This document shows positions 9,624 through 19,507 of a DNA stretch of 64,000 bases, one piece after another. Numbering within the stretch: position 1 is the stretch's first letter; each line of letters begins with the position of its first letter. A program made the translations under genes and the position numbers. Source of the stretch: Lodderomyces elongisporus (Eukaryota > Ascomycota > Pichiomycetes > Serinales > Debaryomycetaceae); contig NC_083680.1 in the NCBI RefSeq assembly GCF_030384665.1, positions 653,001-717,000 on the forward strand. The letters run 5' to 3'. The notes under the pieces were generated by a model, which saw only the letters and a list, made by a program, of their open reading frames with translations, was not told the origin of the DNA and searched no databases.

Positions 9624-11012
9624 CTATTTCAATACGAGACTTACAATATACGCCAATATTGTAATCACCAACGCAAGCAGCAATGAAAGTTTATATATAG
9701 ACACAATTTTTCTCTTTTTCTTTGTGGAGGAAATTTTTAAAATCTCCATAAAAGCTGCGCTAGTTTTGGCTCTAGAGAACTTCTCTTGTGCGCGCTTGTA
9801 CCCATTCTCGCCCAATTTTCTTTTTGTAGGCTCATCAATCTCATTAAAGAAACGCAACATAATTTTGGCCCATTTGACATAGTCGCCTTCTTCGGTAAAC
9901 CCTGTTGCAGCATTAATATTGTCACCGGTATAATTTACGACCGTTTCCAAAGGGCCACCAAAATTCCGCGCCAATACTGGTGTCTTAAATTGCATACTCT
10001 CCACCGGAACAATTCCAAAATGTTCTCTGCCTGGCGTGTACAATAACATCTCGGCATTCTTCAAAAGCGCATTCTTGAGAGAGGTCTTGATGCTGGGAAG
10101 AAACAAGACATCTGTCGAAGGGGGCATGATAATGAGCTTGCCTCGTACCGTAAAGTTTGTCAATTTCAATTCATCACAAATCTGCGTCAACTCTTTCAAA
10201 TACTCAACATTCTCCACGACGCGTGCATCGTATCCCCCAGCAATAACTAGTCTCAGCTTTGTTTTCCCGGAAAACACTTTTCGCAGCCTAGCATATGCTC
10301 GGATGGCAAGCTCTATTTCTTTACTCCGTTCAAATCTATTAATGGATAAGAAGTATTTGGAATCTTTAAAGAAATTACACACCTCTTCGTCTGAAGGCGT
10401 GATTTCCATAGTACTTGCATCAGCATTGATACACGGATAAATCACGCCCGGCTCTGTTTTTAAATTCTTGAAAGTTTCGTGAAACACACCCTTGGTGAAA
10501 TTAGAATTCACTACAATCTCATCGCTGCAGCCAGTAGACCATTCCTCAATAAAATCAAATGGGACACGGTATAAACTTTTTAAAAAACTGCTGCGTTTGG
10601 TCAATAATTGATCTGGGAAATGGCAATAAAATAGTGTTCGCGAAGACTGTTTGCTGAATATGTTGATGAATGGGACACAGAACGATAATTGGTCGATCAC
10701 AAAGTAGTCGTATTTTTTTACCTCACCGGTCAAAATTAGGACCAAGACAAGATACAATTGCCGCAAAATGGCAAACAATATATGAAGACGCTTCATTATT
10801 TGAGTCGGTAAAAAATCTCCGTAAACTTTGACACTTAATTTTCCAGAGCTTATTTCGTCAAAGCAATGTGTAAGATCGCAATGTGAAGTATAAATGGTGA
10901 TGTCGTTGCCTAGTTCTTGTAAACCCATTGCCGCATCAACAACAAGCCGTTCGGCACCACCTATCCCCAAGTCTGGGTGAATGAATGCTATTTTTGCCAG
11001 ATGTTTTGTCAT
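9624..11012 (-). CDS. ALG2: Alpha-1,3/1,6-mannosyltransferase Alg2
   Basis: Encodes 462 aa starting at ATG 11010-11012. This GT4-family enzyme adds the second and third mannose (alpha-1,3 then alpha-1,6) to Man1GlcNAc2-PP-dolichol on the cytoplasmic face of the ER. The N-terminal acceptor region has IHPDLGIGGAERLVVDAAMG and the TSHCDLTHCFDE block diagnostic of Alg2. The C-terminal nucleotide-sugar region has GREHFGIVPVESMQF with the E-x7-E pair (E330, E338) followed by GGPLETV. The last 20 residues form a hydrophobic anchor. Length is near S. cerevisiae Alg2 (503 aa). A recent retrotransposon insertion lies 302 bp upstream of the start codon, within its likely promoter. The 3' end faces the DUF1992 gene. 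Confidence 0.93.
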   Translation of the reverse strand: MTKHLAKIAFIHPDLGIGGAERLVVDAAMGLQELGNDITIYTSHCDLTHCFDEISSGKLSVKVYGDFLPTQIMKRLHILFAILRQLYLVLVLILTGEVKKYDYFVIDQLSFCVPFINIFSKQSSRTLFYCHFPDQLLTKRSSFLKSLYRVPFDFIEEWSTGCSDEIVVNSNFTKGVFHETFKNLKTEPGVIYPCINADASTMEITPSDEEVCNFFKDSKYFLSINRFERSKEIELAIRAYARLRKVFSGKTKLRLVIAGGYDARVVENVEYLKELTQICDELKLTNFTVRGKLIIMPPSTDVLFLPSIKTSLKNALLKNAEMLLYTPGREHFGIVPVESMQFKTPVLARNFGGPLETVVNYTGDNINAATGFTEEGDYVKWAKIMLRFFNEIDEPTKRKLGENGYKRAQEKFSRAKTSAAFMEILKISSTKKKRKIVSIYKLSLLLALVITILAYIVSLVLK

Positions 11013-11314
11013 TGCTTGATACTAAAAGCTGAAGCAAATGACGTTGTTTGATTTCTCTTTTTTGAGTGAGAGAAATAAAGAAAATAAATAAGGAAAAGGA
11101 AAAAAGAAAAACAAAAAGCGATTGATCTATTCAAATTCTTGCAATTCTATATTTTGGATTGTATGAGCTATGCAGTTGTTTGGTAAAAAGATGGTTGTAT
11201 GTATTGCAAATGTGTTTCAATCGTTTTGCACTATTTTGATTTTTTTCTTTCTTATATTATTATTATTTATTTTTTTATTTATTTTGTTTCTTTGAAAAGT
11301 GAGCGGAGGGGAGG
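11013..11314. other. ALG2 5' flank, truncated by LTR element
   Basis: About 300 bp of AT-rich DNA between the ALG2 start codon and the 5' LTR. It ends in a purine-rich GGAGGGGAGG stretch whose last five bases form the left target-site duplication. Confidence 0.6.
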
Positions 11315-11777
11315 TGTCACATTGCGACACTAACTTGTCGCAATATGCCCATATTTCCACAAAGTGGAAATTCGTGCCAAACCCAAAAATGAGAAGATTT
11401 GGCGAAGACAATAGAATTAAATGTAGAAATGAGAATATAAATAGAGGAGAGAAGTCGCATCTCGAACTACTCTCAATTTATATAGAATTATCGATAAATA
11501 CTAGTTTTATTGGTCACCATAAGTTAGACGCAATCTGCCGTGTATTCGAAGAGAATGGCCACTCTGCCGAATGCCTACACTTAACAGATTGTGTCAGATA
11601 ATTTACACCTTACACTTAAAGCATTTGTTATACTCAGTATACAATCAAGGAAGAATTCACTCCCTTCGAATATAGTCAATTGGTAGTTAAATATAATCGT
11701 TGGCACTAGTGAGCTAGGTAACGAAATCTAGTGTACAGCAGTCGCACACTTACGAGGAGTGACGTTGCTATGTGACA
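11315..11777 (+). repeat. 5' LTR (463 bp)
   Basis: It begins TGTCACATTGCG and ends GCTATGTGACA. A TATAAATA box at 11436-11443, followed by AGAGGAGAG, is a plausible core promoter for the element's genomic RNA. A small imperfect palindrome (TTTCCACAAAGTGGAAA) lies near 11354-11371. Confidence 0.92.
11436..11443 (+). promoter_or_regulatory. TATA box in 5' LTR
   Basis: TATAAATA is a consensus TATA element in the middle of the LTR, positioned to drive + strand transcription through the element. The same box occurs in the 3' LTR at 15940-15947, where it could drive transcription outward into the TYW1 3' side. Confidence 0.5.
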
Positions 11778-11780
11778 AAA

Positions 11781-11815
11781 TGGTGGTCCCTAGCAGGAAC
11801 AATGACCATTCCTGC
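11781..11815 (+). promoter_or_regulatory. Candidate primer-binding site and adjacent hairpin
   Basis: Three bases after the 5' LTR the sequence TGGTGGTCCCTAGC starts with TGG, as expected for pairing with a tRNA 3' CCA end. It overlaps a perfect stem GCAGGAA (11793-11799) / TTCCTGC (11809-11815) with a 9-nt loop. The matching tRNA was not identified, so use as a primer site is an inference from position. Confidence 0.4.
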
Positions 11816-12000
11816 AACTTTGCAGATCAATTGACTCAGACAACCGATTGTTGCTGATTGATGTTCTGGTGCATTAAATTGTCAAACTGGAATGTGACAC
11901 TGTCGCGAAAGTTGATCACTATCCAGTATAAAATACGATCGGAAGACCCTACCCGAAAGACAAAGTTAGGGGATATGCTGAAAAGAAATGCATGAATGTT

Positions 12001-12062
12001 GGAGATCTCACTCCCACAGGGTGGAAGTCCCTAGGAACAAAGAAGGCCTAGCTGAAATAGCT
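12001..12062 (+). repeat. Diverged first monomer of the tandem array
   Basis: It shares the spaced motif 'cactccc...gggtggaagtccc...agctgaaatagctga' with the 67-bp monomers that follow, but differs at many positions and in length. It marks the left edge of the array. Confidence 0.6.
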
Positions 12063-12650
12063 GACGAGGAGAGCACACTCCCCTTGGGTGAAAGTCCCGT
12101 AAATTAAAAGACATTTAGCTGAGATAGCTGACGAGGAGAGCACACTCCCCTTGGGTGAAAGTCCCGTAAATTAAAAGACATTTAGCTGAAATAGCTGACG
12201 AGGAGAGCACACTCCCCTTGGGTGAAAGTCCCGTAAATTAAAAGACCTTTAGCTGAAATAGCTGACGAGGAGAGCACACTCCCCTTGGGTGAAAGTCCCG
12301 TAAATTAAAAGACCTTTAGCTGAAATAGCTGACGAGGAGAGCACACTCCCCTTGGGTGAAAGTCCCGTAGATTAAAAGACATTTAGCTGAAATAGCTGAC
12401 GAGGAGAGCACACTCCCCTTGGGTGAAAGTCCCGTAAATTAAAAGACATTTAGCTGAAATAGCTGACGAGGAGAGCACACTCCCCTTGGGTGAAAGTCCC
12501 GTAAATTAAAAGACCTTTAGCTGAAATAGCTGACGAGGAGAGCACACTCCCCTTGGGTGAAAGTCCCGTAAATTAAAAGACCTTTAGCTGAAATAGCTGA
12601 CGAGGAGAGCACACTCCCCTTGGGTGAAAGTCCCGTAAATTAAAAGACCT
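12063..12650 (+). repeat. 67-bp tandem array, nine monomers, 4-monomer higher-order pattern
   Basis: Monomers begin (GACGAGG) at 12063, 12130, 12197, 12264, 12331, 12398, 12465, 12532 and 12599, an exact 67-bp period. They are nearly identical. One diagnostic position near the end of each monomer reads ACATTT in copies 1, 2, 5 and 6 and ACCTTT in copies 3, 4, 7 and 8, giving an A-A-C-C/A-A-C-C pattern. That is a 268-bp higher-order duplication of four monomers. Copy 9 breaks into the integrase fragment. The unit contains AGCTGAAATAGCT (a short hairpin) and GGGTGAAAGTCCC. No open reading frame spans the array. Confidence 0.93.
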
Positions 12651-12947
12651 ACTAAAATTACGGAAACCAGAGTATTGTGGGATTTCACAGCAGCAGCTCT
12701 AGCGAAATTCCTTTATGATGCTTTTATTGCTCGAGTGGGGTCATTTCAAGTGTTAAGGACTGACAACGGACCAGAGTTTATCAAGGGTGTTTCTGCGATA
12801 CTTATTATAAATTCATGGAATCAAAGGAACCTTCTCAGTCCCGTACCACCCCCAAGACAATGGGATGATTGAATCATCCCATAAAGGAATTATTCGATTT
12901 ATGTGCCTGTTACTCCCCAAAGCTTTGGTGGAAGTCCCCGAAATTAA
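12651..12947 (+). pseudogene. Integrase catalytic-core fragment, frameshifted
   Basis: The first frame (to 12872) has LAKFLYDAFIARVGSFQVLR followed by TDNGPEF, the second-Asp block of a DDE retroviral-type integrase core. From about 12817 the similarity continues in the +1 frame with VPYHPQDNGMIESSHKG. This holds the HPQ.NG..E block and the catalytic Glu, which is typical of Ty3/gypsy integrases. The first catalytic Asp, the zinc-binding N-terminus and the C-terminal domain are missing. The fragment is embedded between tandem repeats on both sides, and its second frame runs into the diverged repeats without a stop until 13026. It cannot make an active integrase. Confidence 0.8.
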
Positions 12948-13195
12948 AAGTATTTTATATTTGAAAGCTAGGAGAGCCTACTCCTCTTGGGTGGAAGTCC
13001 CAGAAATGAAAAGTAATTTATTTTGAAGGTTAGGAGAGCAAACTCTTCTTGGGTGGAAGTCCCAAAAATGAAAAGCGCTTATTTACGATTGAGAAGATCA
13101 AACTTCCATTGGATGGAAATCCCATAAATTAAAGAACTTACGAATGAGAAGAGAAAACTTCCATTGGGTGGAAACCCCATAAATTAAAGAAGGTT
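12924..13195 (+). repeat. Diverged tandem repeats downstream of the integrase fragment
   Basis: About five units of 51-62 bp, each with a 'ag-agag...actcc/acttcc-ttgg-gtggaa-gtccc/accc-ataaatt/aaatgaaaag' core. They resemble the 67-bp monomers but are shorter and diverged, increasingly so to the right. Together with the left array they flank the integrase piece. Confidence 0.7.
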
Positions 13196-13562
13196 GTCAC
13201 TACTCGTAGGATGCCTTAATATCTTACCTGTTTCAGAATTAAACGGCAAAATTGATCGTTGTTGACATGACACAATCGGGAAGAGATTCCGAAAGTGAAA
13301 ATAATGCGAAATTGCTACAACTACTGCAAGTTGGAAAAATTTTGATTTCGCGATGAGCCATCGTGGAATTTATTCGCAATATTATTGGTCAGAAAATTTT
13401 ATACTGAAAACAGGAGATGGCCTATACATATCCATGCTATTCTCGACAAAGTAATCAACCTTACATTGAAAAACACCTAAACACAATTAACAAATTAACC
13501 TATAGCAATACAACCATTAACATTGCAATGCACCTATCCAATCTTTACATATACTGAACCAT
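13196..13562. other. Retroelement internal non-coding stretch
   Basis: There is no ORF of note. A pyrimidine-rich TTACCTGTTTCAG near 13225 resembles a 3' splice site, but no matching 5' splice site or branch point was found. Confidence 0.4.
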
Positions 13563-14016
13563 ATGTCAAACCCTGAAAACACTAAGTCCACAGAAAATAA
13601 AGTTCAACCTGGCAAACCATATACTCATGTCTCAACACCTGGTAGAACTGATCTAAGACAGACGCTCCACTCAAACTCCACTATCGAAGATGAAGTTACG
13701 TCCTTCATCGGTGATAATGTTAAACTGATTGTGCAAGAATTGGTAAACTCCAGTAGAGAAGATGTGACTAGAGAAACCAGTTACCATGAACTCAAACCAA
13801 GAATCTATATCAGAATTGGAAAATCGGATGAGTAGGATTGAACAATTTTTGCTGAACTTGACTACGATGTTGACCGGTATCTCAAAAGGATTTCAAACTC
13901 ATAGTTCTGAACCTGAAAATAAATCAAGAATGCTGGAGCAACCCATGCAGTCGACGCCTACTATGGGATCAAATTTGTGTAACAGTCCAGCCCGTACTAT
14001 ACCATTGTAAAACTAA
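13563..14016 (+). pseudogene. Gag N-terminal region, broken by +1 shift and two stops
   Basis: An ATG at 13563 opens a 90-codon hydrophilic frame. From about 13786 the adjacent +1 frame continues with ISELENRMSRIEQFLLNLTT, a heptad-like coiled coil typical of the start of Gag. That frame is closed by TAA at 14008 and TAA at 14014, after which the same frame reopens into the long Gag frame. The arrangement looks like a decayed Gag N-terminus. A programmed +1 shift is possible for the first break but does not explain the stops. Confidence 0.5.
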
Positions 14017-14100
14017 AGTCTTGACATTCAAGGAGGTTTACAACCTTCTACCATTTATGACAGAACTTCCTACACTCTGCAATCAAGGCCTGATGGTATC

Positions 14101-15222
14101 ATGGTGAAAGGGTATGAAGAGACTTGTGAATATATTAATGAGATTCGAAGGAGGTTTATTGATGATAGTAAAGTTGAAGAAATTCCTTATATCATGTATC
14201 CGAATTCCGCAGTTGAGAAGACCTTTATGGCATACTACAATGCTTTAACCGCGAATTTGAATAGGACACCTAGCGATGAACTAGCTTTGAAACGGTATAA
14301 CGTTCGGAAGTTCCCGCCTATGAAAGTGAAAGATATAGATGGATTCTATTATTGGTTAAGGAGTATGGTTTGGTATAAACACACTTATTTCATTCCGGAT
14401 TACTTAATTCGTGATACGATAATTGCAACAGCCAAGGAAGTAGATGATCCAGCATTGACTGGGACCGTCCAAACGAGTTGCAAGAAAATAGACAAAGCAC
14501 TATATTCTCCTATTAAGTATAACCTTCTATTCAAGGACTGGAGAAAAAGCAACAATGGTGAGAGGCCTACCGATATAATCAGGGAGGTGGATGAGATATT
14601 CAAGTCGAACATTCATCCAAAGAGTGTGATGGTAAATGTACAAGGAGAAATTGAAAATTACCTTGAGAGTAATCACGTGAATGCTTTGCCTGTCATGACA
14701 TGGATCAGAATATTCAAGATGTTATTTGGGAGACTAAGTGTGGTAATGGATCAAATTATATATTATATGAGTCCAGATATCAAGGTAGTAAAAGTAAATG
14801 AAAAAGGGTTAAACTATGAAATCACATTGAATGGATTCGAAATTAGGCACCACCTATATTCCTTGAAAATGGGTAGTCTAAAACAATTGTTGGATGTGGA
14901 AGGCGAAGTACCGTATAATGATATATGGGATGCGGTTAGTACAACATATGACGATAACATGTCACGTATACACGTCGTAGGACTGACTTTGAAGATGAAG
15001 CAGACGAAAGGAGACTTGTGTCAAGTATGCATAAAAATCGGACATGAGTTAACAAAATGTTATAGAGCAAAAGAGGCAGAGAAGTGTGGTACAATACTAA
15101 TGAAAAATAGAAGGGTGTTTACTCCTGACGGCACTGAATTGATGATAAGTGAAAAAGAGACAATGATGAGAAAGTATCCGGATTTATTCACGAGTGCAGA
15201 AGGACGACACCTGTATAAATAA
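14101..15222 (+). CDS. Gag-like protein with CCHC zinc knuckle
   Basis: Encodes 373 aa from ATG 14101; the same frame is open from 14017. The body is rich in Tyr/Lys/Asp and helix formers, like retrotransposon capsid domains. It has no membrane segment. Near the C-terminus CQVCIKIGHELTKC is a perfect C-x2-C-x4-H-x4-C nucleic-acid-binding knuckle, the hallmark of nucleocapsid. No protease motif (D-S/T-G) or polymerase motif follows; the remaining 600 bp before the 3' LTR is non-coding. In the element it would form the virus-like particle and bind RNA. It is unusual that it lies downstream of integrase sequence. A host-derived or captured gag cannot be excluded. Confidence 0.72.
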   Translation: MVKGYEETCEYINEIRRRFIDDSKVEEIPYIMYPNSAVEKTFMAYYNALTANLNRTPSDELALKRYNVRKFPPMKVKDIDGFYYWLRSMVWYKHTYFIPDYLIRDTIIATAKEVDDPALTGTVQTSCKKIDKALYSPIKYNLLFKDWRKSNNGERPTDIIREVDEIFKSNIHPKSVMVNVQGEIENYLESNHVNALPVMTWIRIFKMLFGRLSVVMDQIIYYMSPDIKVVKVNEKGLNYEITLNGFEIRHHLYSLKMGSLKQLLDVEGEVPYNDIWDAVSTTYDDNMSRIHVVGLTLKMKQTKGDLCQVCIKIGHELTKCYRAKEAEKCGTILMKNRRVFTPDGTELMISEKETMMRKYPDLFTSAEGRHLYK

Positions 15223-15804
15223 TGAGAGCCGATAGAGATAATGATGTAATATGGGTATTGAACAAATCTTCAGATGGTCGAAGTAAAGTGAATCAGTTCA
15301 CAGTATCAAAGACATGATTTCATGATGATACTAAGATAATGATAGATCCTAAAAGAAGAACCCGTGAGACCATTAAAGTATGAAGGTTTGAAAACAAGGA
15401 TACCCTAGTGCAGAGAAGAGGATGATTTTTCATGTCTGTTCCTATTGCAACTGAAAGCAAAGGAAACTTGATTGTACTATTAAATTTTTTTCAAAGGGAG
15501 GGTGCGATCCATGAAAAAATCATCGCTGAAACCTATTTAAAGAAATCACATGAAATTTAAACAAAAATTTCAAAGCTTATTTACAATGTTATAAAAGAGT
15601 AATCATGACGTTACTTCAAATTGAAAACAAAGGTTTGTGAATCTAATGATAAGACCAAATAAAGAACAAAAAATTTCAATGAGTTTACCAAATGAATTTA
15701 CTCAATAAGCAAATACAAGTTGACCATTATATTGAATTAAGATTAACCGAAAGAAAATATTGTTAAGTCGAAAATCGTCGACATACCCCCCCTTACTCCC
15801 TCGT
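15223..15804. other. Retroelement 3' internal non-coding region
   Basis: About 580 bp between the Gag stop and the polypurine tract with multiple stops in all frames. No pol domain can be recognised. Confidence 0.6.
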
Positions 15805-15817
15805 GGAGGGGGGAGGA
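15805..15817 (+). promoter_or_regulatory. Polypurine tract
   Basis: GGAGGGGGGAGGA directly precedes the 3' LTR (one T between tract and TG), the expected site of plus-strand DNA priming. The upstream CCCCCCC...CTCCCTC makes a potential stem with it. Confidence 0.75.
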
Positions 15818-15818
15818 T

Positions 15819-16281
15819 TGTCACATTGCGACACTAACTTGTCGCAATATGCCCATATTTCCACAAAGTGGAAATTCGTGCCAAACCCAAAAATGAGAAG
15901 ATTTGGCGAAGACAATAGAATTAAATGTAGAAATGAGAATATAAATAGAGGAGAGAAGTCGCATCTCGAACTACTCTCAATTTATATAGAATTATCGATA
16001 AATACTAGTTTTATTGGTCACCATAAGTTAGACGCAATCTGCCGTGTATTCGAAGAGAATGGCCACTCTGCCGAATGCCTACACTTAACAGATTGTGTCA
16101 GATAATTTACACCTTACACTTAAAGCATTTGTTATACTCAGTATACAATCAAGGAAGAATTCACTCCCTTCGAATATAGTCAATTGGTAGTTAAATATAA
16201 TCGTTGGCACTAGTGAGCTAGGTAACGAAATCTAGTGTACAGCAGTCGCACACTTACGAGGAGTGACGTTGCTATGTGACA
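15819..16281 (+). repeat. 3' LTR (463 bp), identical to the 5' LTR
   Basis: The sequence matches 11315-11777 base for base as far as read by eye. It is followed by GGAGG, the right target-site duplication. Confidence 0.92.
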
Positions 16282-16596
16282 GGAGGGGAGAGTGGTTTGA
16301 CCGTTTTCTATCATTTGGCAACAGGCCAAGCGCGTGCTCAAAATTTCGAAAATGGCAACGCGATAATTGTAGAATTTTGTTAAATATTTCATTTATTTGA
16401 TTCTTCTGTGAAATCCGATAACGATTATGCTTATATTAAATTTCAATCTTCTATAATTTGTGATTACACACTTGAGTAAGTTAAAACATACACCTATACG
16501 AACATATAGACAACCATATATACATATATATAAATGTATATATATAAATATATATAAATATATACGTGTAACTGGCGTAGGCGATGTACATTAGAA
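16282..16596. other. Spacer between LTR element and TYW1 3' end
   Basis: About 315 bp of unique then AT-rich DNA ((AT)n near 16515-16565). It would hold the TYW1 transcription end. No gene seen. Confidence 0.55.
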
Positions 16597-18987
16597 TTAT
16601 TTGACTTCTGCAACAAGATCCTCTTCCTTGAGTATTGCCTCCTCTTCTCTTGCCAATTTGTTCTTCAATTTCTCCGCTTTACGATCCCATCGGGTATCCA
16701 CAGGATTGAATCCTGCTTCTTGAGAGCCCCATATGGCCCATTCTGGAGTTGGTGCCACGTAGTCAATATCGACAAAATCCTTACCGCTTTCTAATAATTC
16801 AAAGAACTTGGCATAGTCGATATGTGTGTGCCAAACACCATTAATCCTGAATTTTTCATGAGCAACAAGGATACAACAAGAGTGTGCATGCTCTGCGGCA
16901 ATATCGTAATCAAGTCCTCTTCTATGTAACTCTGAGTTCAAGCTTTGCACAAAATTCTTACATTCTTCGTAAAATGGAATGTTTTGCATCGTTAATGGAT
17001 TCCCATTCCCAGTAGACGAACCGCAGAATGTTGCTCCCTTGATTTCTATTTGTGAGGGCATTGCACGCTCCACCATATCAGCATAACTCTCAATGTCCGT
17101 CATATTAAACCCCTTAACCAATGTTAACCTGAAAACAGTTCGTTGGTGGGATTGTGTTGTGCGTAGAATATCCAAACATGACATTAAACGTTCCCAAAAA
17201 TCACTATTTAAAGGACGATCAACTTTTTTGAGATCAGACTTGGTTGGTGCATCGATACTAACGTATAATTGAGTAACTTTACTTAATTTGGCAAGATTGT
17301 CTGGATGCTGGGCATTACATACTAAGAAGGAGGAAATATGTTGATCATGAAGCATTTTGACAAACTCATTGATGTGTGGGTAAAAGATGGGCTCACCAAC
17401 TAATGAAAGGGCACAATGCTTAACTTGGAATGCTTCTTGGAACCTATCCATTTGTATACCAGGAACACCTCTCATTTGTTTGATTTTTTGATAATGGCCC
17501 TGTAATGCCCCCTCCATGACTTTTTCTGGTGGATCAACCTCCCACCGCCAATTCAGCTTTGCTACCGGATTAGTTCCATGTCTCCAACAAAAGACACATT
17601 TATTTGAGCATGCTAATGATGGAGTTGTCTCCATACACAAATGACTCTTGATACCGTAAAATGCAAATTTGTAACACGATCCTCTACCGCGCAAGGCTGA
17701 CTTTGTCCACCTACAAATCTTGACACCCGAATGCGAGCCAACAATGGTATATCCTTGCTTTGTAAGTGATTTGTATGTTGGGGAATCTTTAGTAACCATT
17801 TGTTTGATCTCCAATTCTCTTGATCCAGGTTGTCTTTGGATCTGTCCAGTTTTACGGATAATGTCACCCATGTCTTCAACATCAACCAACGTGTCGGCAT
17901 CGTCACTAGCCTCGGTCTCGGCATCACTGTCATCAAAAGCAGCATCATCATTTTCATCAACGTAAAATGGTTCATCATCAACCAATAATTCGGCAAAACC
18001 CTGAATCCATTCCTGTGCTTTAGGTTCACCTTCATACTTCATACAAACAGTTCCAGCAGGGAATAACCTCCTCGCACCCAATTTTCCTAACCATCTGTCG
18101 GCTAGTTTTGCTTGCTGACAAAACTTTTCACCTGCCCAGCTCTCTCTGTCTCCTAAACCTAGTACGGCAAAACCTAAAAGTGACCTCAATGGGTACTTGT
18201 CTACTCGGAAATCTTGGTATGTGTCAACCAAATGTTCAAGGAAATAATCGATTGGCGAATCTGTTTCGTATGAAGGCAAAACCATCAAGTAGATATTTTT
18301 TTCATTTACCTCGCTATTCCCATTTGTTGTCTCGCTGTTATTCTTAGGTGTCTTTAAGAAATATTTTTCGAGGTCATCAACGTCGTCATCAAGGCTTAGC
18401 AATTTGGGTTTGTGTTTGAGCTCGAGCGACGTCAATTTCTCACAAAGCTTTTTGGCTATCCTAGTTGAAGACCCAGTTAAAGATGTGTAAAAAATATAAA
18501 TCTGTGCTTGTTTGAGATCTACTTGGGTAGAGTTGGTGAGATGTGCTCCAACTTTCTCAATAGTTGGCTTACTGGCTTTGAAAACTTTCGGCGACCTCTT
18601 GGCGCGTGTAGGAAACGGTTTCGTACGTTCTGCAGTTGGTCCATTATTCAGTGAAGCAAAGTTTTTTGACGTTGTGAAATCTACTGCAAGAATAGGTGAA
18701 CTGTGATTTTGAGACTCTTTGCGAAGAAATGCCTGTTTACCTCCAAGATTTTGAAAGTTTGCATTTGGTTTAGAAATTACAGATCTAGCATCTTGTTCCA
18801 GGTTTTGGCCATGAACTTGTATTTGTATTTGCCCTTGCTGTTGCTGTTGTTGATGCTGTTGTTGTTGTTGTTGTTCATGTTTATATATGTATGATAATAC
18901 CAAGGCGCAAAGTGCCAAAGACCATCTTCCTCCGTTTAAGAGGTACGTTGCAATGCAAGCCGAAAGAATTAAATTGCCCGACCCCAT
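16597..18987 (-). CDS. TYW1: tRNA 4-demethylwyosine synthase Tyw1
   Basis: Encodes 796 aa from ATG 18985-18987, against about 810 in S. cerevisiae. It catalyses the radical-SAM step that condenses pyruvate carbons onto m1G37 of tRNA-Phe to make the tricyclic wyosine core at the ER surface. The N-terminus has a hydrophobic segment, then a Gln-rich linker. A flavodoxin-like FMN domain (YIFYTSLTGSSTRIAKKLCE through LGLGDRESW) covers roughly residues 160-320. After an acidic linker comes the radical-SAM/Fe-S domain with C460-x3-C464-x2-C467 (CSNKCVFCWRHGTNP). The Tyw1 motifs VGEPIFYPHINEF and YVSIDAPTKSDLKKVDRPL follow. All key cysteines are present. Confidence 0.95.
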   Translation of the reverse strand: MGSGNLILSACIATYLLNGGRWSLALCALVLSYIYKHEQQQQQQHQQQQQQGQIQIQVHGQNLEQDARSVISKPNANFQNLGGKQAFLRKESQNHSSPILAVDFTTSKNFASLNNGPTAERTKPFPTRAKRSPKVFKASKPTIEKVGAHLTNSTQVDLKQAQIYIFYTSLTGSSTRIAKKLCEKLTSLELKHKPKLLSLDDDVDDLEKYFLKTPKNNSETTNGNSEVNEKNIYLMVLPSYETDSPIDYFLEHLVDTYQDFRVDKYPLRSLLGFAVLGLGDRESWAGEKFCQQAKLADRWLGKLGARRLFPAGTVCMKYEGEPKAQEWIQGFAELLVDDEPFYVDENDDAAFDDSDAETEASDDADTLVDVEDMGDIIRKTGQIQRQPGSRELEIKQMVTKDSPTYKSLTKQGYTIVGSHSGVKICRWTKSALRGRGSCYKFAFYGIKSHLCMETTPSLACSNKCVFCWRHGTNPVAKLNWRWEVDPPEKVMEGALQGHYQKIKQMRGVPGIQMDRFQEAFQVKHCALSLVGEPIFYPHINEFVKMLHDQHISSFLVCNAQHPDNLAKLSKVTQLYVSIDAPTKSDLKKVDRPLNSDFWERLMSCLDILRTTQSHQRTVFRLTLVKGFNMTDIESYADMVERAMPSQIEIKGATFCGSSTGNGNPLTMQNIPFYEECKNFVQSLNSELHRRGLDYDIAAEHAHSCCILVAHEKFRINGVWHTHIDYAKFFELLESGKDFVDIDYVAPTPEWAIWGSQEAGFNPVDTRWDRKAEKLKNKLAREEEAILKEEDLVAEVK

Positions 18988-19507
18988 TAAGTCTAGTTAT
19001 CTCTCCTTTCTATTGGTAAACGCGTCCCTTGTACTATGACTCGTTGTTTCTGCCCAAAGTCTATAGATCCAAGTCGAAAACTGTGATGGAATGTTATCTA
19101 TTTAAAAAAATAAACATAAGAAATTGAAAAAAAAAAAAAAAAAAGAAAAGAAAAGAAGACATAAAAAAAGAATAAACCAAAGATCCATCTGCTAATGTGG
19201 AGCTGACTTATCGTACGCAGAAAAAAAAAAAAAATAAGGAGAAAAAAAAAATTATCAAGACCAGAAAAAAGCATCGAGGTTAGGGTCGTGCACATCATTC
19301 CTACCCATTAACACTGTGCTGATTACTAACACCTTCTTTAATCATGGTCAGCTTTACTATTTTTTTGGGGGGGTCCTCTACAAAACAAAAGTAAGGAACA
19401 ACTAGATCAAATACTTTATGGCGTTTGCTTTTTCTTTATTAATTGGTTTTTCTTTTTTATGAAAGGCTTGTCATATAATTGCAATTCATAATCATGCAAT
19501 TTGTTTC
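18988..19507. other. TYW1 promoter / CDC26 3' region
   Basis: AT-rich spacer of about 520 bp with A-tracts near 19125-19150 and 19220-19250. No gene seen. Confidence 0.55.

Follow-up and report, generated by a model that had tools for sequence, protein, structure and literature searches.

A 64-kb stretch of the Lodderomyces elongisporus genome (C8:653001-717000; this whole stretch is the window, and positions without a contig name refer to it) carries, at 11315-16281, a long terminal repeat (LTR) element, here called W. With moderate confidence, we read W as a Ty3/gypsy element of this species that is non-autonomous and has only Gag left, that was moved in trans, and whose Gag was selected after pol had been lost. 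The evidence comes from the anatomy of W, from its comparison with a second full copy, and from related elements in the assembly, whose 8 contigs add up to 16,086,460 bases.

W is 4967 bp long, with an interior of 4041 bp (Table 1). Its two LTRs show no difference over 463 bp, the inverted repeat at its termini, TGTCACAT, extends over 8 bp exactly, GGAGG stands at both ends, and the polypurine tract GGAGGGGGGAGGA precedes the 3' LTR; all four features had been listed in a preliminary description of the window, and the LTRs do match letter for letter. Three bases after the 5' LTR lies the primer-binding site, TGGTGGTCCCTAGCAGGA, of which 18 nt pair with the 3' end of tRNA-Ile(AAU) plus CCA; outside known elements this sequence occurs at 6 candidate places, 5 of them tRNA-Ile genes and one the primer site of another element remnant. 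Paired LTRs, a short target-site duplication, a primer site and a purine tract, all of them marks of a Ty3/gypsy element, are thus present, and W is a recent insertion. The identical LTRs, the GGAGG duplication and the lack of pol agree with its earlier designation as a recent, non-autonomous LTR element in a CUG-clade yeast.

The 4.04-kb interior had been said to lack protease, reverse transcriptase (RT) and RNase H. When the Gag and Pol proteins of its relatives were compared with W (tblastn), only Gag and an integrase scrap were matched; no RT frame was found inside W, and among the matches listed (36) in an RVT_1 profile search of the assembly, none lay on contig C8. The scrap and the tandem arrays of the leader were absent from the preliminary description. 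In the scrap, 82 residues are matched over 86 Pol positions in two reading frames, as two pieces with 74% and 64% identity to the pol of C7a, an 8-kb relative described below; judging from the order of the matches, the position of integrase upstream of gag is a rearrangement.

A genome search with the LTR of W yielded at least 36 matches, of which 22 form 11 pairs and 10 are single or old LTRs, with 4 short ones left unread. It bore out the proposal that W belongs to a family. The second full copy, C4n (C4:1372926-1377747), has identical LTRs of its own within a CGGTG duplication; its LTRs are 98% and its interior 94% identical to those of W, and 168 of 4763 aligned sites differ between the two. 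A solo LTR at C3:41713, 98% identical to that of W, has AACAG on either side. An older LTR at C1:1479259 (85%) retains one hairpin unit as well as the primer site; beside it, pol is present in broken pieces whose order is inverted, the main one being 59-60% identical to both autonomous types. Duplications of 5 bp, each different, flank 9 of the 11 paired elements (the exceptions are C1_1531 and C2_34); when elements were compared side by side, the 18-nt primer site was present in 9 of 10, W included, and the purine tract, as AGAGGGGGGAG or GGAGGGGGGAG, in 7 of the 9 other than W.

In W, gag is open from an ATG at 14101 to 15222, giving 373 aa with a zinc knuckle, and alignment with four relatives places the start of this frame about 20 residues past the onset of recognisable conservation. 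The earlier statement that Gag is kept therefore holds for most of the conserved block, which is open from this ATG, and not for the upstream gag, which is broken by two stops. Between W and C4n, positions 14101-15219 contain 24 synonymous and 23 nonsynonymous changes and 0 stops, whereas random placement of the same changes gave 12.6 +- 3.0 synonymous ones (P=0.0002; with roles reversed, P=0.00015). The excess appears on both sides of the frame break of C4n (P=0.029 and 0.0005), and the ratio of nonsynonymous to synonymous rates (dN/dS) for 14017-15219 is 0.21; none of the controls, namely off-frame readings and three frames each of two flanking non-coding stretches, was significant. The two copies carry different gag breaks, that of C4n within the conserved block, and their ancestor would therefore have been intact. 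In both copies gag gives way to the 3' region at the same point, with no gap, and the 3' region has diverged by 4.7%, gag by 4.2%; this shared pol-less junction and the equal degree of divergence on either side of it would most simply place the synonymous excess after the loss of pol. Gag was thus probably under selection after pol loss, and these alignments are most simply read as a loss of pol followed by retention of Gag.

Several observations weigh against such a history. The selection test is one comparison, between the only two full copies. In the upstream gag, all 10 changes at 13563-13766 are nonsynonymous, which shows no constraint, and at 13774-14005 only 2 of 7 are synonymous, with one stop (P=0.56). 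Divergence between W and C4n is uneven, at 1.5-2% in the LTR and 5' leader and 4-6.5% from 12923 to 15818, which suggests recombination, possibly with an unseen sister; if gag had been exchanged with an autonomous sister not seen here, the signal could look the same. The capsid fold of W Gag was not confirmed; matches to the PNMA2 and Rous sarcoma capsids were within noise in a search outside the viral structure library. The mosaic divergence and the gag frames now broken in both copies would also suit an ordinary internal-deletion derivative carried in trans, in which Gag would travel as a passenger, conserved because of an autonomous ancestor or re-imported by recombination. A second deletion family, at C8:827400 and C2:1262332, points the same way, with an integrase remnant under no detectable constraint. 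We consider this account possible but rather unlikely, since the shared pol-less 3' junction and the divergence of the 3' region place the excess most simply after the loss of pol.

That second pol-less family consists of two 3.9-kb elements, C8:827400-831299 (L014 901-4800) and C2:1262332-1266230 (L016 833-4731), with identical LTRs within each. Of pol they retain the RNase H tail and integrase alone, which do not share the frame of the leader ATG tested and in one case contain a stop; the integrase remnant shows 5 synonymous changes, 6 nonsynonymous changes and 1 stop (P=0.19, from only 12 changes). A public contig of 3,891 bp (P0007), near the size of these elements, carries a 481-aa integrase that is 98% identical over 87% of the query. 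A further element of 3.84 kb, C1:1531069-1534909 (L025 870-4714), is Gag-only: it has an open Gag frame of 496 aa, LTRs that are 97% identical, and no remaining primer site, and it matches the integrase-only family at about 81% in the LTR and 73-79% in the leader. Given these contents, Gag-only and integrase-only deletion forms coexist in the genome, and the two kinds may be complementary deletion forms of one lineage. Separately, L062 (C4:675600-677700) has an open Gag frame of 431 aa that matches part of the conserved block (query 160-372 of 552), with a similar match at C5:864081; it is possibly a truncated Gag gene.

Candidate helpers for W are present in the same genome. Four relatives of 7.8-8.0 kb, at C7:652437 (C7a, L018), C4:912300 (C4a), C3:2268097 and C2:477544, have open gag (587-aa) and pol (1422-aa) frames, LTRs identical within each, and 1-7 substitutions between copies. 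In C7a, the one of the four examined with Pfam, protease (weak, below the cut-off), RT, RNase H and integrase were read in Ty3/gypsy order. W and all four share the primer site, the purine tract, 5-bp duplications and the last 16 LTR bases, the TATA position of C7a is the same as that of W, and their Gag is 47% identical to W Gag over 391 aligned residues; a Gag of the relatives matches the L. elongisporus record PVL30_005174. Another pol-bearing relative, C3_1324 (C3:1324930-1333041, 8.26 kb), has one in-frame stop in pol and shares the primer site with W; its LTR is about 69% identical over 151-463. Mobilisation in trans, as first proposed, is well supported by the cis-acting sites common to W and its open-pol relatives. 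The autonomous relative with matching LTRs that the proposal called for was not found: the best LTR identity of W to an open-pol element is 75%, over positions 118-463 only, and no open-pol relative exceeded this value among the LTR matches listed, which counts against our reading of W. The only pol seen beside a closer LTR (85%) is a broken and rearranged fragment. The RVT_1 search gave at least 36 matches including other families, and those read were 23-54% identical to the pol of C7a. A related Ty3/gypsy-like family at C1:23081 and 17 further places, with an equal RVT_1 score and open frames of 1529 aa, looks like a recent expansion; the stretches of two of its copies (L045, L046), whose 5' ends may be cut off, contained no tandem array.

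The leader of W carries tandem repeats, each unit of which is predicted to form two neighbouring hairpins. An alignment and covariance model were built from 12 distinct units, all from W and C4n. In this alignment 91.7% of cells pair; this value, the covariation score and the number of doubly changed cells were each reached by 0 of 500 shuffles, although the units are related to one another, so these counts are no probabilities. The model matches 14 places in W in full. When 17 other loci (124 kb) were searched, it gave strong matches to the first leader unit of C3_1324 and to a remnant unit at C1:1479, weak matches in the 63-bp array of C3_1324 to every one of its seven units (E values 0.0004 to 0.024), and two fragments at E 0.43. 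Both control models recovered the two strong units; of the seven array units, a sequence-only model recovered one (E 0.083) and a model with shifted pairs, and thus the wrong structure, recovered none. The length of the array shifts by whole units: W and C4n differ by 201 bp, or three units, and C4a (L019) differs by about three 55-bp leader units from its counterparts L018, L020 and L021, from which it is otherwise 1-7 substitutions away. By these comparisons, the leader array of an autonomous copy alters its length by whole units during or after copying.

Against a structured leader stand the weakness of the matches to the C3_1324 array and the score, in the same search, of an unrelated-looking stretch (L053 307-371, E 0.016). 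The 55-bp array of C7a, one searched of the four open autonomous copies, was not matched, nor was the 101-bp array of C8:827400, and at the remnant unit of L052/L011 (one place) the wrong-structure model scored higher, at 42.4 against 39.0 bits. Within the alignment, the two pairs changed on both sides were reached by 38 of 500 shuffles, and further pair types were not above shuffles (488 of 500). Folding energies are not unusual (z +0.68 to -2.20, nine units), and for 2 of 3 arrays the better fold is that of the reverse strand. Because the energies are not exceptional, the case for structure is built on covariation and the model controls, which weakly suggest a structured repeat leader common to W and one pol-bearing relative, C3_1324. 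We propose that the hairpins probably act as an RNA signal, present in many copies, for dimerisation or packaging, packaging being a guess. The repeats also bear some resemblance to a group II intron or ribozyme, for which Rfam gave no support; its sole match, a T-box at 19.7 bits where the cut-off is 93, is sub-threshold and attributed to chance. L053 201-409 (C5:14700-14908) contains a 105-bp near-duplicate pair (91%) upstream of related gag and pol, and is possibly another double-hairpin leader.

If W is indeed a Gag-only element moved in trans, pol would have been lost once, before W and C4n split, with the Gag block under protein-level selection from then at least until its separate breaks. 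Its RNA would be made from its own LTR and packaged, copied from the tRNA-Ile(AAU) primer, and integrated with a 5-bp duplication, while protease, RT/RNase H and integrase would be supplied in trans by pol-bearing relatives; these could be the four 8-kb copies, nearly identical to one another, or else an autonomous form closer to W and missing from the assembly. The tandem double hairpins would serve as a multiplied packaging or dimerisation signal. A bolder version, which we hold only tentatively and think somewhat improbable, is a satellite-like lineage: having given up pol, it would have maintained a Gag of its own by selection and amplified the double-hairpin signal of its leader as a means of competing for the particles and enzymes that its autonomous relatives make.

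In Saccharomyces, truncated Gag can inhibit, as Ty1 p22 or Drt2 (PMC4599808, PMC10951436), and DRT2, from Ty1' GAG, restricts Ty1' (PMC10951436). W resembles these in having a truncated Gag in a yeast, and its frame is open without the upstream part of Gag; its capsid-nucleocapsid frame might accordingly have been retained as an inhibitor of autonomous relatives. Those inhibitors derive from Ty1-family Gag; W moreover retains the conserved block almost entirely and not just a C-terminal half of it, C4n has a different break, within that block, and W keeps transposition sites and inserted recently, neither of which a domesticated gene needs. We regard this role as quite improbable. Segmental duplication or rearrangement mimicking insertion, to which only the unusual internal order lends anything, is highly improbable in view of the different 5-bp duplications at 9 of 11 paired elements, the complete LTR ends, and the primer site and purine tract in place.

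Table 1. Features of W and of its leader in the window
Feature	Positions	Strand
Target-site duplication GGAGG, left	11310..11314	.
5' LTR, 463 bp; begins TGTCACAT, ends ATGTGACA, TATAAATA at 11436	11315..11777	+
Primer-binding site, 18 nt, complementary to tRNA-Ile(AAU) 3' end plus CCA	11781..11798	+
First double-hairpin unit of the leader (predicted)	11996..12036	+
Leader tandem array, 67 bp x 9.0, one predicted double hairpin per unit	12049..12650	+
Integrase-core scrap, 5' of gag, between leader arrays	12663..12921	+
Leader tandem array, 62 bp x 2.4, predicted double hairpins	12923..13075	+
Leader tandem array, 55 bp x 2.0, predicted double hairpins	13083..13191	+
Upstream gag remains, stops at 14008-14010 and 14014-14016	13858..14100	+
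Open frame, 373 aa: most of the conserved Gag block and zinc knuckle CQVCIKIGHELTKC	14101..15222	+
3' non-coding region, without pol match	15223..15804	+
Polypurine tract	15805..15817	+
3' LTR, same sequence as the 5' LTR	15819..16281	+
Target-site duplication GGAGG, right	16282..16286	.

W is flanked by two minus-strand frames, one that we take to be ALG2 (9624-11021) and one presumably resembling TYW1 (16597-18996). No tRNA was detected by ARAGORN, either in the window or at 11 element loci with flanks of about 0.7 to 2 kb, and the idea that insertion was targeted to tRNA genes is without support. Elsewhere, two W-like LTRs (83%) at C2:34114-40522 (L012 1497-7920) enclose an interior without gag or pol match, in which a 382-aa frame presumably resembles a non-LTR-element endonuclease. 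The Gag frame of W is also found on a public contig of 1,045,478 bases (C8 has 1,088,720), with 16 member sequences counted in cluster P0001, and is probably carried by another assembly too.

Non-autonomous LTR elements are common; a LARD has a long non-coding interior, and a TRIM is a very short element without coding capacity. W had been likened to both, a label that does not fit: its Gag frame, with a synonymous excess, sets it apart from a LARD, and that frame and its 4967 bp from a TRIM. Because a conserved Gag block is present, the TR-GAG elements of plants are a better fit and the closest known kind; they have LTRs, no pol, Gag as the sole protein, and a full-pol relative, much as W would if its broken gag is counted. 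By this analogy W would work most like a TR-GAG element, having no pol beyond the integrase scrap and 373 aa of the conserved block open; with the upstream gag interrupted and the capsid fold not confirmed, its formal placement among them is tentative. It differs in that interruption, which lies upstream of the main block, and in the tandem double hairpins of its leader. In Arabidopsis, a new insertion of a TR-GAG element was reported and called the first direct evidence of transposition, and the element is ATCOPIA63 with a 562-aa GAG (PMC8704663), whereas W is a Ty3/gypsy-type element of a yeast. Tca1 of Candida albicans, likewise a non-autonomous LTR element of a CUG-clade yeast, is 5.6 kb long and is described as lacking any open reading frame (PMC7175516); another source states that LTR elements readily turn non-autonomous and mentions Ylt1-like elements in L. 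elongisporus (PMC3248453). Titles and abstract openings outside subscription journals disclosed no Gag-only Lodderomyces element and no double-hairpin leader array, and a literature search gave nothing useful on Tca3 or Tca8, two possible precedents.

The question why pol-less elements retain Gag, which the TR-GAG elements of plants also raise, becomes testable in L. elongisporus, a yeast whose genome of 16 Mb contains two full copies and few candidate helpers, and the second pol-less family, which kept integrase instead and shows no detectable constraint, offers a natural contrast. For the Ty3/gypsy elements of fungi, the double-hairpin leader is a well-delimited candidate signal for dimerisation or packaging. 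Probable selection on Gag in a pol-less lineage, together with a structured leader that may be shared with C3_1324, makes W worth following up.

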